Position numbers and translations under genes: made by a program
The notes under the pieces: model-generated
The model's input: the letters and a program-made list of their open reading frames with translations, nothing else
Told to the model about the DNA's origin: nothing
Databases searched by the model: none
Assembly: GCA_034509925.1 (NCBI GenBank)
Contig: CM067529.1
Coordinates: 6,083,001-6,147,000 of the forward strand
DNA length: 64,000 nucleotides
From: Hirudinaria manillensis
Lineage: Eukaryota > Annelida > Clitellata > Hirudinida > Hirudinidae
Direction: 5' to 3'
In this document: piece after piece, positions 46,849 to 55,800 of the stretch
Layout: each line of letters starts with the position of its first letter
How positions within the stretch are numbered: the first letter of the stretch is position 1

Positions 46849-49021
46849 ATGGAGTTGATGAGGAGGCTTAGGGATGCATTAAAATCCAAACGTATTCGAA
46901 GACCAATCGCATCCGTTCTTTTGAGTACCTTACTTTCCTATACTCTGACTCTGGTTGTCATAACGACTGACCATTGGGAAGTAACAGAATTTTGTGGCCT
47001 GGATACCTTGCCAAATCTCTTGAGGAACGACTCAATCATGGATGAAAGTAATGGATTTTACAGTCTCAAGTTGCTCAGGATCAAATCACCCTTTGTATCT
47101 ACCAACTACCAAATATCTTGGTCTGCGCTCACAAAACAAAGCAAGTTTAGATTTATAAATTGAGTAATTTCGTCTTAATTGATTTTTTTTTTATTTTCAC
47201 AGATGCATTTTTATATATTGGCCTTGTAGTTGTACATCAGTTTCTCTAACAAAGATTTTACAAAATCTTGTTATCAGGCATTCTATCCATTGAAGAATCC
47301 GACAATACGACTCAGAATATCTCGACGTTGTCACCGTTTGCATCATCCAACAACATTCGAATCGTGCACGTCCTTCTCAGGAGCAGAAGCGGAGGCATTT
47401 GGCAGATTTGTGATCGAATTTCAGGTCAGAAGGCACACGTCTCTTCAATTGCCGTCACAAAATTATTGTTCAACATAATAAATGTTTTAACCGGTCTAAA
47501 GTGTAGTTGCGGCTATTTGGGGATTTTGTTAAAGATCAAACAAGAATTACGACACATTTTAGAGCAGGGGCCGACAACTTAAGGAGCGTGTGATTTGGCA
47601 TGCGTTGTAGTTTTCATTGGCATGAGGAAGGCGAAGAAAATATTATTAGACAATTTAAATATCTGCCAGACAGGCGAAAACTGCTTGGGGTGTCTTAAGA
47701 GCTTCATCTATTCTCTCGATCTTGAACAATTAATAGAATTGGCATGTTCTTTAGCCATTCACTTTGGAGCTTTTGTAAATTTGAACGCTTGATAACTACA
47801 CTATATATCGACAAAGGTACAGATATGGGTTGTTTGTTTGTCGAACGACTAATTTACAACTTGGGCAAACATACATCATCAAAGTGTTGTCGGGCCCTGT
47901 TTTACAGAAAACTCTCGATATATGAAAATCGTTCTAAGTTTTTAGTTTTTGAATATTTTATTTTAATAGTATAAGTTAGAGTTTAATTTTTAATTAAGTT
48001 ATTGTTCTCAAATAGTTGATTTATTTGAGCCTTGAATATTATTTAGTTAACGTTCACAGATCAGTTCAGGACAAGTTCGTTCTTCAGAAATGTCATCAGG
48101 AGTATGCCTTCGTTTCGGACATCTTGTTACAATTACATAAGAGATTATGAAAAGGCCAACATGACAGAAAAGGGAATAGCAATTATACGTGAGTATTATT
48201 ATAATTCATCATCACTTGATATAGTTTTAAATAGCACGGCTCTTGTTAAGACATGCGACGACCGCGGTCTCATCTGGAATGAAAATGGTTTCTCTTAATT
48301 GAAGGTCTTTGACATTTGCAAAATCCGTAAATATTATTACTATGGATAATAATAATAATAATAATAATAATTATTATTATTTATAACCATTTGGAAATTC
48401 ATAACCCGATGATTAAAACAATATTATTATTTAATGTAATTTAATTTAATCCCAGTTATGCGTGTGAAGCGATGTTTCAGTTTTTCAGCAGCTTGCACAA
48501 CTATTTTTTTAAATAAACGCTATTCATTTGCTATAAAAAAATGTTTAATAAATCTCAATTAAACACATCCAGGTATGCAAAATTCGGCGGTATCCTGCGT
48601 AATTGTCTGCGTGCTGTGCATGGCAAGTTCGTTGTGTACAGGAGCTTTCAGTATCTGGAAAGAACAGGTGGCAGTGTGCATGGTAACGGGCGTTCTCAAC
48701 TGTGTTTCCGGTATGTTCCATTTGAATGGATAGAATGACTACGGTTGTCGTGGTATAACCGTATGTTACTATTTTCTCTTCATAGGAACATTTCTATGTT
48801 TTGCTCTCACCATAATGGCGACGAAATTTAGGTACATGTCAGGAGATTGCTTGACCATCGATACAACACTCCCAACGGAGGTGTGCAGATTGACCGACAT
48901 CCAAATGTCATGGTCCATGGCTTTGGGGTGGCTTTCCCTGGTCGTAGTCGTTTTCAATGCAATAGTGTGGCTCTACCTTAGCAGATGCTATCGATTAGAG
49001 AAATCGAAATCAATTGTTTGA
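46849..49021 (+). CDS. Claudin/CACNG-like four-span membrane protein
   Basis: Predicted PMP22/claudin-superfamily protein. Five exons (46849-47047, 47278-47424, 48060-48188, 48573-48710, 48786-49021; internal phases all 1) close to 282 residues. TM1 is PIASVLLSTLLSYTLTLVVI, followed by TDHWEV. The long first extracellular loop has N-glycosylation-type sites (NTT, NIS) and ends its second exon with SGGIWQICDRIS, the G-[LI]-W-x-x-C signature of claudins and voltage-gated calcium channel gamma subunits. TM2 and TM3 lie in exons 4-5 (CVIVCVLCMASSLCTGAFSI, then VAVCMVTGVLNCVSGTFLCF) and TM4 is ALGWLSLVVVVFNAIVWLYL, with a short basic tail. The long loop points more to CACNG, GSG1-like or TMEM-type members than to junctional claudins. 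The exon 1 donor is the weakest choice. Confidence 0.75.
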
Positions 49022-49437: not shown

Positions 49438-52400
49438 TCATTTGGACGGTGATTCCAATATATTCGTTTCAAGTTCCATTTCTTCATCATCAAACTCAAC
49501 CTGCCGCAACTGGAAAAAGCAAATATTGAGAGTTTTAGGATACAATTTCAAAATTATCACAGCAGATGGTGCCGAAATGCATCAAATAAATAAACAAATA
49601 ATTAATTAAATAAATAAATTTTAGATGGTGACTTCACGGAGTCGTGACTAAAAACGAGGCAAGATTTTATAGAGCTGAAGAGAAACATGCCCACAAAGAA
49701 AGCAGAAACAAATAAAGAAAACGCGTAACATTCATAGCGTTGGCATTTGATGTAAAAAAAAATTGTTGCGGCGCAAAATAACGACGTCATTAAACGATTA
49801 CAACTGTGATAAATCAAGATTTTGAAATAAACTCTCACACATAGGATGTTATAGGAAGCCTTAGCAGTCCAATATGCCATCCAGAAAGCGTGAAGACAAA
49901 CTATGACGATCAAAAGACAAGTAAAGTGTGCCAATTTCAAGCTGCTTGGATCTTTGAGGCTCTTGTCTGTATTTAATTAAAGATTCCAATATTAAATCGA
50001 TATAATTTAGCAACGATCGAATGCAATGCTAACAAGGATCGTAATTATAATCTTCAATGTTGCAAGTCGTTCCATAGAAACCCAATTTACAGAGATTGGA
50101 TGGACACCTGCCGCTTGTTAAGCTGCAAGGCACAGGTTTCAAGCATCTGCAGCGATTTTGACATTTTCCTCGATACAAGTAGGTCCCCAATTTACAACCT
50201 TTTTGTGAAGAAAATTTAAAAAAAGCGTTTGTTTTGATAAGGTTTCGATTACAAACTTGTATAAACACTTCTGCTCCTGGAAGACGATGAACAGAAATTA
50301 TTAGAAAATTTACACCTTGGGCAACGATACTTGTTTACTACAAGACTACTAACGTCAATCAGGTCACCGCAAAAACACTTTTCAGGATTCTTGAATGTTG
50401 CATGAAAATATTTAAAAATAGGCTGCTCAGTTAAGGAGTTAATTATTACATAATGAAACATAATGATATTTCAGTTGACATTTTGGATTATAAAATTAAC
50501 CTCTCTAAAACTGATGAGAGTTTTTCCTAAGGATCGACATTTGTTGGTGCAATCCATCGAATGTGTTGATTTGTTAGAATATGATATTCTGACTTCATCC
50601 ATGTTATCATTTGAAGAAAAACATCCAAAATATGAAATCTCTTCAAAGTTCTGATATAATAGGAAATAATAATATTAGGAAAGAAATAATAGGGAATATT
50701 TTTTATGAATTATTTTATATCTCATATTTAATATAAATATATAAAATATAAAATGGCATCCAAATTTAAGGTCAAAAACTGGAGTATTGAAATACGAAGC
50801 GATAACTTCAGAAAAAGTTGAAATTTTGACACCTTTGCTGAACAGTAACAAGAATCTACATTGCTTGAAAATGCGAGCAAGAATAAAAATTTAGATTTCG
50901 ATTTGTGGAACTACAAGATCGCATTTAAATTAGGGAAACTTGAAGAGAAATAAAACAATTGGTTTTTAAAATTATGTTTAATTAATATTATTAGTTTATT
51001 ACAGAATAATTTTTATTTAAATTTGTCACTCTCGTGCAACGAGGATCAATAAGAATTGGTTCAATTATCGATTTAAATTCGATCTGTTCAAAGCTCACAG
51101 AATCGGCAACAAATTCCACATTTGCAAGTTCGTCGATAAGAACATCGAAATCTGTATCTTCCGCAAGAGATTTCACGCCTTCATGAGAAGCCCAGTCATA
51201 GAAATCTGTCAAAAATAAATTAAAATCAAAGGATTTTGATCTTAAACCCAAAATATCGGGAACATTAGTCGCAATTTCCACGAAAAATCATCAAAGGCAT
51301 ACTTTCACAGTGCTTGCCGTAAGTCTGCATCGAACATTCACATCTATAATTTGTGTTATTGATTGCAAGACATGTACCTCCGTTGTCACACGTTACATTG
51401 GCGCAAATATCTAAATACCATTGTTAAATTATTAAACGATTACTATGCAACGTGAAAACAAGATGTCTTATTTAAAGTCGACCGTATTTGTCACAACTTT
51501 CTCCGAAATAATGGGGCTGACATGAACCCTTCAAGCAGACGCCAGTTGACCTTCTGCAATGTGATTTCTCGCAATAGCAATGTTTTTCACAAGCATCACC
51601 CCAAGTCCTGCTCTTGCAAACTAAAGTTATTTAATTTTATTTGCAAATTAATAAACAAATTGGCTTGTCGACATGGTCACTAATTTTTATTTTTGTTTAA
51701 AAATCTGATGAAGATAACGCATTTTCAAAAAAAAAAAACCACCAGCAAATGATAAATATTTTGAAAGAAATAATATTAACCAGTCATCACGCGGAACGGG
51801 GTGTCCTTGGATCCAATTATTATGTTTAATTCATATGTCGATTCCGACAAATCATACGAGCTATTACATTCAGTTACTGGAGCTCTCTTGGCTCCCAACA
51901 AATCCTCTACTTCACAGAGACAAATGCATCCCGTTCCTGCAATGGCACATTTTTTTAATAAAATCGTCAAATTTATGCAGACAAATAATTTATGTATCAG
52001 TGAAATAATATCTTGAATGGGAAACTATGAATATTAACTGTGAAATACTCCAACTAAAGTCCTCGGCTTTTCGCAATTATTATATGTTGCTGCACACTCC
52101 CAAGCACATAAATCCTTGTTATAGAATCTGTTTGAAGTAATAGGGGGTCCATATTCCAAATAAGAACAGGAATAAAAACATCCGTAAAATTCGGCTGTGT
52201 CAATTTCGCGGTTGATGTCTTTGAAAAGTTTATCTTTCAGTTTTTCAGTCTGTTCTAGATACAAAGTTCAGTTGCGTTTTGAAATTCTTGCTTCAACTAA
52301 TTAAAGATTTAGAGTTACCAGCAACAAACAAGCCCACTACGAAATTAACTATTTTGTCCTCCATTCCTTTATCTGCAGGCGGTAAATACCATAGGCCACT

Positions 52401-52481
52401 CGTAATATCCAAATAATAGTCAAAGCGTCCGTAAACCGTCCTCCCGCAACATAAAAAGGCAATAGAAAGCATAAAATACAT
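49438..52481 (-). CDS. Membrane protein with two WSC-like domains and EGF-like modules
   Basis: Eleven exons, downward: 52481-52319, 52254-52039, 51936-51781, 51620-51483, 51410-51303, 51205-51030, 50650-50501, 50422-50257, 50198-50034, 49966-49638, 49509-49438. Every phase matches and the frame closes at 612 residues. A signal peptide (FMLSIAFLCCGRTVYG) starts it. WSC-like region 1 (about 73-145): FYGCFYSC..., CAWECAATYNN, then TGCICLCE. Next, Cys-rich EGF/laminin-type modules (about 180-262), including CDNGGTCLAINNTNYRCEC. A linker follows, then WSC region 2 (about 320-424): YFGCFSSND, CTNKCRSLGK, KCFCGD, and the SVY ending. Another Cys-rich module (425-478) is followed by one to three hydrophobic segments (first LAHFTCLLIVIVCLHAFW) and an acidic tail FDDEEMELE. 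WSC domains bind carbohydrate. Joining the 5' six and 3' five exons is inferred; a stop at 50991 would otherwise end a first, secreted product. Confidence 0.65.
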
Positions 52482-52896
52482 CTGTTAAAACATTAAAAAA
52501 CAGATGTTAACAGATGAATTCCTTAAGTAATATCAACATAAATACATGTCAAAAAGACTACAGTACAATACAACGGTTTTATTTAAATTCAAATGCAACA
52601 ACAAATGACTGTTTATATTTTCAATTCTTTTAAATTCAACTTAAACGCAATATTAAATTTGCGATCAACAGGAATTCATGTTGTTTTAAAGCTATTTTAC
52701 AAATTCAAAGAATATTATTCGTTTGAAATTGGAAGTCAATTTCCTATACCCACAAATTGTAAAACAATTTTTATTTATGTTTAAAGTGTTTTTGCATCGT
52801 TTGTGTTTAGGATGTATCAAAAACAATCTTTGCGCGGTATTTACACATTTAAAATCGCTTAAATACTTTCGGAGCGGAGTTCTATGATTAGATAAC
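52482..52896. promoter_or_regulatory. Compact bidirectional promoter between the WSC gene and UHRF1
   Basis: The two start codons point away from each other with 415 bp between them, so both transcripts must start in this interval or in unseen leader exons. No TATA box is obvious. AT-rich throughout. Confidence 0.5.
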
Positions 52897-55800
52897 ATGT
52901 GGATCCAAGTTAGAAGCACAGACGGGAGTAAAACAATTAGAGTAGATGAACTATCGAAACTTACTAAGATTGAAGAATTACGCATAAGACTGACTAAATT
53001 TTTCGATGCCTCCGTTGATCGCCAACGATTATTTTGTAAGGGGAAGGAAGTAAGTTAATGGACTTACTATATTTCTGTGTTATTACAGCTCAAATGATAA
53101 AACTAATATGTCGAGACTGTTAATGATGGGTCAACTCTTTAAAGCCTTAGGCACGCTTTCAATCTCGAAATGCTGATCTGATTAAATATTTTTAATCTGT
53201 GAAAATATTTGGGTTACTTATGGTTACATCGTGACAACAGCAAAAACTACTTTAATTAACAATTTCTTTTTGTCCGGAATCTAACTTTAGTTTTTACTTT
53301 CAAACAAATTTGGACTTTGTTAATTTTGTTACAATCTGGCCTTTGTAGCTGAATTGCTCATATAAGACATGATTGATATTAAAGTTGTTAAACAAATCAC
53401 TGCCCCTTGTTTCAGATGGTTGATGGGCATACATTATTTGATTACAATGTTTCCCCAAATGAAGTTATCCTCATCCTTATCAAAAATGCCTCTTTAGTTC
53501 ATGAGCAGGGAGGCCTGAGTGAAACTCCAAAAAATGATGAAATTGATGCAGTGAAATGTGAAAATGATGTCATCCAAGAGGAAGTGAGTGCAAAAAAAGC
53601 AGCTTCTTGAGGAGATTTATATTAAACTGACATTTCTTTTTGTAGAATTGTGTCTCAAGCATCAACAGCAAATACAAAGTAAGTTTGTTGGAGCTTTTAT
53701 GGGAAATTTGCAATTTATCCTCAAAGCAGACGATTTGAATTCTGACTACATGAGGAAATGTATTTAATAAAGATTTGAGGGTTTAAAAAAAATATTTAAA
53801 AGCTTAATGATCTAAATATAAAAATTTCATTTGAAAGGTTGGAGATATTTTGGATGTTAGGGACGAGACGATGGGTGCTTGGTTTGAAGGAGTTGTGGTA
53901 AAAGTTGTTCCTAATAACAAATCTTCTGATGACGTGGGAACTGAAAATGATGACTTTATTTACTCTGTAAAATATGAAGGGTTGGTTGTCAAATATTGTA
54001 ATTTATTGTTTTCTATTCACTAGTGATGATGACAATGATGATGATTTGCAGAGAGGAAAATGAAGTGATAGAGGTGACCTACAATCATCTGAGACCAAGA
54101 GCCTGTAAGAAGGTATCTTTTGCAGAGGTGAAGTCGGGGGATAAGGTCATGTTGAACTACAACTATGATGAACCCACCAAAAGAGGTTATTGGTATGATG
54201 CTGAAATTACTGGCAAGAAATCAACCAGGACTCAGAAGGAGATATTTGCCACAGTTTATATTGGGTAGGCTATTTTTGGTGAATGTTTTGAAATTTAGAA
54301 ATTCATTTAGCATTTCAATACATTATTGAAATAAATTATACATAATAAATTATTGAAATACAGAAAGGAACTGGTTCCATTCGAGAATTGCAAGATCATA
54401 TTTATTGATGAATTGTTTCAAATAGAGAATTTTGGCAGTCAAAAAAATGCTAATTCTGGTGATGACCAAGATAAAGCTAGCCCTCCTATTCGTAAGAATT
54501 CTTTTATCGAAGGTTGTTGATGTTTGGCAGTAATTTAATCAATTTAATCGATTTAAGGTGAAACAAAGCCTGAATGCGACCACTGCCTGGATAACCCACG
54601 AAAGAAGTGCAAGCACTGCTCGTGCTGCGTTTGTGGTGGAAAAAATGAACCAGAAAAACAAATAATTTGCGATGAGTGCAACTCTGCTTATCACATTTAT
54701 TGTTTACAACCTCCGCTGACAGAAATCCCACAAGAAGATGATTGGTGCATTTTTTTAAATTGAATTCCTGTTTGAATTTAGTAAGAAAGCAGTTTGATTT
54801 ATTAAATTTTAGGTACTGTCCTGATTGTAAACTAGACACGAGCAAGATTGTTTTGGCAGGGGAAAAATTAAAAGAAAGCAGTAAAAAAAGGAAGATGGCC
54901 TCGTCACAATCAACTTCAAACAGAGATTGGGGGAAGGTTTGTCAGATCTTGGACTTATTGAATCTGTTGAATATTTTTTATCGATCTCAATCATTTTAAT
55001 AACAGGGCATGGCTTGCGTTGGACGTTCTAAGATGTGCACCATCGTTCCTTCGAACCATTTCGGTCCCATTCCAGGAATTGAAGTGGGAAATCTTTGGAA
55101 GTTTAGAGTGCAGGTTTGTGGTGCTTTGATGTTCATTGTTAATTTATTATTATTAATTTTCATAATATTGAATCATCCAGGCCAGTGAATCAGGTGTGCA
55201 TAGGCCTCATGTTGCAGGCATCCATGGCAGAGAAAATGAAGGGGCTTATTCGATAGTGTTGTCTGGGGGATATGAAGATGACATTGTAAGTTACTCAATT
55301 ACATGATTCTATGTTATGTAGAATTTTGGTTTCAAATTGCTTGTAAATTATTTATTTGTAAATTATTGAAGAGTTCATTCTTAATTTTTAGGATGAGGGG
55401 TTCGAATTTACGTACACTGGAAGTGGTGGTAGGGATTTGTCTGGTAATAAAAGGACTGCTGGTCAGTCTTGTGATCAGACACTCACTAGGATGAATAGGT
55501 TAGCCATTAATTTATTGTTGTTTACTCATTGATATAATTTGATTTTAAATTTAATAATACGAATATGATATCTCAGGGCATTAGCAAAAAATTGCGATGC
55601 TGTAATCAATGCAAAGGATGGAGCAGAAGCCAAAGATTGGAAGGCTGGAAAACCTGTAAGGGTGGTGAGGAACTGCAAAGGGAGAAAGCATTCCAAATAT
55701 TCTCCCGAAGATGGGAATCGTTACGATGGTATTTACAAGGTTTGTTGAGTGCTTCTGAACCACAGGTATTTCGATGACTCATGTGCATGGCATCCTATTT

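Follow-up and report, generated by a model that had tools for sequence, protein, structure and literature searches.

To our knowledge, few animal proteins that carry a WSC domain have a known role. Besides a WSC domain, polycystin-1 carries PKD repeats and GAIN and PLAT domains; it is a plasma membrane protein for which a published abstract gives 11 membrane segments and a mass of more than 462 kDa. EGF modules of the laminin/stabilin type (hereafter LE modules) are carried by MEGF10/Draper, which is defined by an EMI domain and has an NPxY/ITAM tail, and by the stabilins, which carry FAS1 and Link domains. Kremen is described as a Kringle–WSC–CUB protein (PMC5014086, PMC3927609), the Kringle and WSC domains of Kremen1 bind the protein DKK1 (PMC5014086), and Xenopus kremen 2 has a phase-0 intron in its WSC region (PMC3927609). 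WSC domains adopt the PAN/Apple fold; it is through PAN domains that contacts with protein or carbohydrate partners are made (PMC9024836). Four disulfides hold the WSC domain, two of which link the CxxxC of the helix to the CxC and are common to PAN domains, while the other two, together with a CGG motif, are WSC features (PMC9024836). The same paper describes the yeast protein Wsc1, a cell wall stress sensor of the plasma membrane that carries this fold on a membrane-spanning protein, and its main text makes no mention of EGF modules there. The nearest report from an annelid is that of glycerotoxin from Glycera, for which a calcium-binding EGF, two WSC domains and a CCP domain are described at the N-terminal end, followed by a C-terminus without known domain (PMC5336659).

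The gene described here lies on the minus strand of the window, by which we mean the whole stretch of 64,000 nucleotides of Hirudinaria manillensis DNA that was analysed, and it has the look of an undamaged animal gene whose product is a surface protein, anchored in the membrane and made of WSC and EGF modules. It can be seen in Table 1 that the hand model comprises 11 coding exons; all have GT–AG ends and they run in phase from the ATG to the stop codon, encoding 534 residues. The same model was reproduced by a splice-site search in which most of each module was fixed and the exon edges were left free; with shorter fixed cores, exons 4, 5 and 6 were trimmed at their 3' ends. GC content is 0.32–0.45 in the exons versus 0.22–0.32 in the introns. 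The protein begins with a signal-like start and a charged stretch, which are followed by a WSC-like domain (WSC1), an LE module, an EGF module, an acidic linker, a second WSC domain (WSC2), a further LE module, a membrane segment and an acidic tail. A first-pass annotation of this DNA had proposed eleven in-phase exons, a signal peptide and a product of 612 residues. The exons are borne out by both the hand model and the splice-site search, the signal peptide was judged by eye, and the length gives way to 534 residues; the membrane exon, the frame of which is open to 49602, probably accounts for the difference. Its order of WSC-like, EGF/laminin-like, linker, WSC, Cys-rich and membrane parts is likewise supported, the Cys-rich part being an LE module. 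An acceptor-like TTTTAACAG stands directly before the start codon (window 52482-52493), and a 5' untranslated intron may therefore end there.

Table 1. Coordinates of the focal gene in the window, and genome positions of further loci with the same module order.
Feature	Position	Strand	Basis or remark
Whole gene, 11 coding exons, 534 aa	49438..52481	-	hand model and splice-site search
Exon 1: ATG, hydrophobic start, charged pre-WSC stretch, residues 1-55	52319..52481	-	signal peptide judged by eye
Exon 2: front half of eroded WSC1-like domain (first Cys, CxxxC)	52039..52254	-	
Exon 3: back half of WSC1-like domain (CxC, sixth Cys; without seventh and eighth Cys and CGG)	51781..51936	-	
Exon 4: first LE (LE1), laminin/stabilin-type EGF, residues 179-225	51483..51620	-	Pfam and family profiles
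Exon 5: EGF module, residues 225-261	51303..51410	-	Pfam and family profiles
Exon 6: acidic linker, residues 261-319	51030..51205	-	no WSC resemblance
Exon 7: WSC2 front half, then phase-0 intron	50501..50650	-	
Exon 8: WSC2 back half, 133 nt, phases 0/1	50257..50389	-	size and phases as in three paralogues
Exon 9: last LE, residues 414-469	50034..50198	-	family profile without focal gene; Pfam E 0.032
Exon 10: membrane segment	49839..49966	-	19-residue mean hydropathy up to 2.14
Possible longer exon 10, second hydrophobic stretch	49602..49838	-	frame open to stop at 49602
Exon 11: short acidic tail and stop	49438..49509	-	
Paralogue L029	C4:0.37 Mb		order present; modelled through to membrane exon
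Paralogue L030	C4:0.80 Mb		same order as focal gene; modelled through to membrane exon
Paralogue L031	C7:1.76 Mb		order present; modelled through to membrane exon
Paralogue L032/L042	C7:1.79 Mb		two overlapping stretches; order present; unspliced
Paralogue L033	C7:0.34 Mb		order present; model incomplete

When the whole protein was scanned with Pfam, a stabilin-type EGF was matched at residues 183-223 (E 3.8e-5; 24.4 bits, under the cut-off of 27) and an EGF at residues 227-253 (E 0.023, also under the cut-off), along with one further weak match. Hand-chosen domain pieces were also scanned in isolation; here the LE+EGF piece scored 29.0 bits with the stabilin EGF profile, which exceeds the cut-off of 27, and the last LE gave a weak match (Table 1). 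Family profiles built without the focal gene scored 35.9 bits on LE1, 31.2 on the last LE and 25.5 on the EGF module, where the best of 2000 shuffles against such leave-out profiles reached 12.4 bits for LE, 11.1 for EGF and 9.6 for WSC. The cysteine sets are full, with eight in each of the two LE modules and six in the EGF module. We conclude from the leave-out profile and Pfam scores that the LE and EGF modules stand, and that WSC2 is a divergent member of its family.

As an isolated piece (about residues 325-412), WSC2 scored 26.3 bits (E 8.9e-6), just under the PF01822 cut-off of 27.8, and no WSC domain was listed in the Pfam scan of the whole 534 residues. Against the full-length WSC profile made without the focal gene WSC2 reached 13.3 bits (shuffle maximum 9.6), and with the half-domain profiles made in the same way it did not rise above shuffles. 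The family WSC profile, in which WSC2 of the focal gene is one of six rows, matched six distinct PDB chains, namely four of Kremen1 (best E 4.7e-11), 7pz2 and 9n3u. We take 7pz2 to be yeast Wsc1, the entry name being uninformative, as is that of 9n3u. All eight cysteines are kept in the WSC order (329, 353, 357, 374, 376, 392, 395 and 402), following the pattern given in PMC9024836. By eye, the CGG motif of the long loop is absent from WSC2, which has CSS where its relatives carry CGG.

For WSC1 the outcome was different from what the first-pass annotation had claimed. A WSC profile hit at residues 73-145, named beforehand as the test of a first WSC domain, was not obtained: there was no match to the isolated piece with Pfam, nor with the half-domain or full leave-out family profiles, and hhalign gave a probability of 0.3% against WSC, the acidic linker that served as a control also giving nothing. 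The cysteine spacing fits six of the eight WSC places, with three extra cysteines, and a relaxed form of this pattern, which was written after seeing the sequence, occurred in 14 of 20000 shuffles. The summed alignment score of WSC1 to the eight other family WSC domains was reached by 3 of 2000 shuffles, or by 120 of 2000 when the cysteines were held fixed; the corresponding score of the acidic linker, a control that holds no WSC domain, was reached by 88 of 1000. The alignment table comprised 10 domains, the incomplete L030 WSC1 and L033 WSC2 being left out and the insert between the halves of L031 WSC1 removed. The three of these eight domains that lie nearest to WSC1 each come from the first WSC position of their gene, with scores that are very low (0.07, 0.05 and 0.03). 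Its internal intron is in phase 1, versus phase 0 in the first WSC of L029, L031 and L033. Of the four disulfide pairs, WSC1 retains the cysteines for the two that PAN domains share and for C1–C6; those of the last pair are missing, as is the CGG motif. Since six of the eight WSC cysteines are kept without support from any profile, WSC1 may be regarded, at best and short of proof, as an eroded, PAN-like WSC domain.

A protein search of the 148 Mb genome (23 contigs) found no close second copy of the focal gene. The WSC profile gave at least 96 matches in this genome at E ≤ 0.001, which is a lower bound because 150 of the 333 candidates were scored, and in which one WSC domain can count twice because it is split by an intron; the focal-gene exons are absent from these 96 matches of the genome-wide Pfam WSC search. 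There was no match in 14 control genomes, which says little as eight of the 14 are prokaryotes. We looked for the order WSC–LE–(EGF/LE)n–WSC–LE in stretches around some of the WSC matches, and found it at five further loci on two contigs (Table 1). The order was not found in L034–L036, L046–L049, L058 and L059, or in the flanks L043 and L044; the stretch L045 is the focal gene itself. The unusual order noted in the first-pass annotation is real, but it is not unique, since five other loci share it, and its recurrence in other genes of the genome makes it a family trait and not a one-off. The best reading is that of a family of at least six genes with a common order and a variable number of LE/EGF units.

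The exon for the back half of WSC2 has the same length and phases in the focal gene and in L029, L030 and L031, and when exon phases are compared with the paralogues more widely the LE, EGF and WSC2 exons agree whereas the intron of the first WSC differs. The halves of the first WSC are weak or unseen in several paralogues, with 15 and 15 bits in L030, 9 bits for the back half in L033, and a front half that was missed by the profile in L029. LE modules are slightly more alike when they occupy the same position in different genes than when they occupy other positions (mean normalised score 0.303 versus 0.276, for 16 LE modules from six genes, leaving out the C11 cluster of L049, L058 and L059), an excess that was reached by 61 of 5000 label shuffles, and the order therefore looks inherited. 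To judge from these sequence comparisons, the module order most likely descends from a common ancestor gene.

The family profiles were trained on modules of the focal gene, L029, L030, L031, L032 and L033, and most hits on these loci are consequently not independent. Outside the training set were the first WSC, the first LE and the front half of the second WSC of L042, along with L049, L058 and L059. Independent support for the family comes from the Pfam WSC profile, which scored 67.7 bits on the L029 model, 54.5 on L030 and 66.1 on L031; none was reported on the incomplete L033 model, so that three of the four models scanned match. None of the models of L029, L030 and L031 has a start exon: they open within the first WSC or shortly ahead of it, and that of L029 skips the linker. 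The L033 model probably includes a wrong exon with a long hydrophobic run, and is without the front half of the second WSC and the membrane exon.

Three of the loci that do not have the order, L034, L035 and L036 (on C12, C11 and C2), appear by eye and from weak profile hits to have at least two WSC exons, with EGF-like exons downstream; this make-up recalls the EGF and two WSC domains of glycerotoxin and is unlike the focal family. At C11:7.19–7.22 Mb there are five tandem units (one in L049, two in L058 and two in L059). Each has the back half of a WSC domain and a pair of LE modules, and in three of the five the pair is separated by a weak match to a second-WSC front half (11–13 bits). The WSC–LE cassette may have come from these tandem units. 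A plus-strand open frame of 1184 codons (L032:1999-5550), perhaps a mobile element in an intron, faces the C7:1.79 Mb paralogue on the other strand, in the interval from the second WSC of that paralogue to its last LE.

Set against the described systems, the domain content is unlike that of Kremen, polycystin-1 or MEGF10 by Pfam, and the earlier statement that the order differs from all three is confirmed. Kremen1/2 resemble the focal protein in being type I membrane proteins with a WSC domain, and Kremen1 accounts for most of the PDB matches given above; a phase-0 intron inside WSC is also common to Xenopus kremen 2, as far as it is described, and WSC2, as a likeness of phase and not of compared positions. 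However, the focal protein has two WSC-type domains around LE/EGF modules, and Pfam found neither a Kringle nor a CUB domain in it. Polycystin-1 shares the WSC domain and, by the description cited at the outset, the plasma membrane location, but its size and number of membrane segments set it apart from the focal protein, whose short model has 534 residues and a single clear segment, and neither PKD repeats, GAIN nor PLAT were found by Pfam in the focal protein, the whole-protein matches being of EGF type only. With MEGF10/Draper and the stabilins the likeness lies in the LE-type EGF modules, the stabilin EGF profile being matched by LE1; Pfam gave no hit to EMI, FAS1 or Link, and neither NPxY nor ITAM occurs in the exon 11 tail of the short form, a longer tail being possible. 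The likeness to yeast Wsc1 is that of a WSC/PAN fold on a membrane-spanning protein. Glycerotoxin is likewise an annelid protein with EGF and two WSC domains, but it fails the comparison: in the focal protein the WSC domains flank the LE/EGF modules, there is a membrane segment, and no CCP hit was found by Pfam. Among the open-access papers searched, we found no description of the order WSC–LE–EGF–WSC–LE–membrane.

We think it probable that the gene encodes a type I, single-pass surface protein in which WSC/PAN modules flank an LE/EGF rod, and which would serve as an adhesion or recognition receptor of a family of at least six genes. The simplest reading would be a surface receptor or an adhesion protein that has a binding module on either end of its EGF rod, and the binding role suggested for it draws on what is known of the domain families. 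The two WSC/PAN-type modules, of which the outer one would be eroded, would be spaced by the short LE/EGF rod and the acidic linker, and the membrane segment with its short acidic tail would anchor them at the cell surface. The membrane-near WSC domain might then bind a protein or a glycan on a neighbouring cell, the matrix or a particle. The short tail would suit an anchor, an endocytic receptor or a co-receptor and not a signalling enzyme; as it is also without tyrosine, direct tyrosine signalling is less likely than a role in uptake, in anchoring or as a co-receptor. The proposal in the first-pass annotation of a 'sugar or matrix sensor' claims more than the evidence allows, given that PAN domains bind protein or carbohydrate and that the WSC region of Kremen1 takes part in binding DKK1.

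How often the protein crosses the membrane depends on the end of exon 10. In the short model there is a single membrane segment, followed by LRQVEFDDEEMELETNILESPSK, and the exon 11 tail of this form has no tyrosine and hence neither NPxY nor ITAM. The C-terminus may be longer and hold more hydrophobic segments: it is possible, though on balance doubtful, that the protein is multi-pass, with exon 10 continuing to about 49638 or 49602 and adding one or two hydrophobic segments, which is probably what the longer first-pass model contained. The open frame, with its second hydrophobic peak, is consistent with this, as is the GC content of 49838-49638, which at 0.35 is above that of all ten introns of the model. 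The in-frame codon score of that stretch, -0.04 per codon, is like that of exon 10 (-0.033) and lies near the top of the intron frames (median -0.330, maximum 0.004, for 96 frames that are not independent). However, a reverse-strand frame of the same stretch, with its stops included, scores higher in total (-0.9 versus -2.7), and the codon score therefore does not decide on a long exon 10. When the stretch itself was resampled, 240 of 5000 draws gave an open frame of 67 codons, and 31 of 5000 did so when the draws came from the other introns. Against the longer exon, moreover, three paralogues have membrane exons of 119, 134 and 113 nt up to their stop codons, near the 128 nt of the focal exon, and those of L029 and L031 carry a donor-like CAG|GT just before the stop; GTGAGA at 49838 also fits the donor consensus, although the base before it does not. 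We favour the short form as appreciably the likelier of the two.

Other explanations would alter the nature of the gene or its role. It is very unlikely that two genes have been joined, one for a secreted WSC-like/EGF protein ending at 50991 and another for a WSC–LE membrane protein. The frame of exon 6 does run on to a stop at 50991, and intron 6 is, at 379 nt, the longest of the model; nevertheless, exon 7 is in phase with exon 6, the linker and the second-WSC front half lie within one exon in L030, and L029, L030 and L031 hold the whole order on one strand. Because these three share the order through to the membrane exon, as well as the 133-nt exon, one gene is the likelier. A decaying family member of little function, in which WSC1 and the CGG of WSC2 are being lost, is distinctly unlikely. 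The loss from WSC1 of the seventh and eighth cysteines and of profile signal, the CSS of WSC2 and the likewise divergent first WSC of L030 are what decay would produce, but all eleven exons have open frames and GT–AG ends, and full sets of cysteines are retained by both LE modules and the EGF module. An engulfing scavenger receptor like Draper/MEGF10 or the stabilins, whose other binding domains would here be replaced by WSC, is an unlikely alternative to which the score of LE1 over the stabilin EGF cut-off in the isolated LE+EGF piece lends some weight; the Pfam hits include no EMI, FAS1 or Link, there are only two LE modules, and the exon 11 tail lacks tyrosine. Finally, it is an improbable idea that the dispersed and tandem WSC–LE cassette genes form an annelid-specific recognition system directed at self, partner or microbe. 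If it were true, the outer WSC would be eroding or diversifying while the membrane-near WSC–LE is kept, and the role would be comparable to that of other invertebrate receptor expansions. The single-pass adhesion or recognition receptor remains our preferred reading.

Taken singly, the focal gene is fairly ordinary. Together with the many WSC exons of this genome, a family with WSC domains on either side of an EGF rod would provide a defined gene set in which to study WSC binding and the recruitment of the domain to recognition in invertebrates.

The focal gene has a plus-strand neighbour on either side. Beyond its 3' end there is a claudin-like gene (window 48563-49021; 24.3 bits, under the cut-off of 29.1), and beyond its start, at about 52900-54000 and diverging from it, a UHRF1-like gene with ubiquitin and tandem-tudor matches; no link between either of these neighbours and the focal gene was seen. 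Elsewhere in the assembly, a Ciona spliced-leader pattern and an 18S rRNA word gave no match. The COX1 profile matched contig C23 (15581 bases, 5000 of them N), where the COX1 frame requires TGA to be read as Trp and, judged by eye, improves when AGR is read as Ser (code 5). With the other genes of this mitochondrial contig identified by eye, the order cox1–cox2–cox3–nad6–cob … nad4 … nad1–nad3–nad2 agrees with that of annelids, which makes an annelid source likely. A COX1 copy is also present on a nuclear contig (L037, C9:3026446-3027786; 408.4 bits, nine TGA), with the same score and TGA count as in the mitochondrial L038 (C23), and the C9 sequence is either a recent nuclear copy or an assembly artefact.
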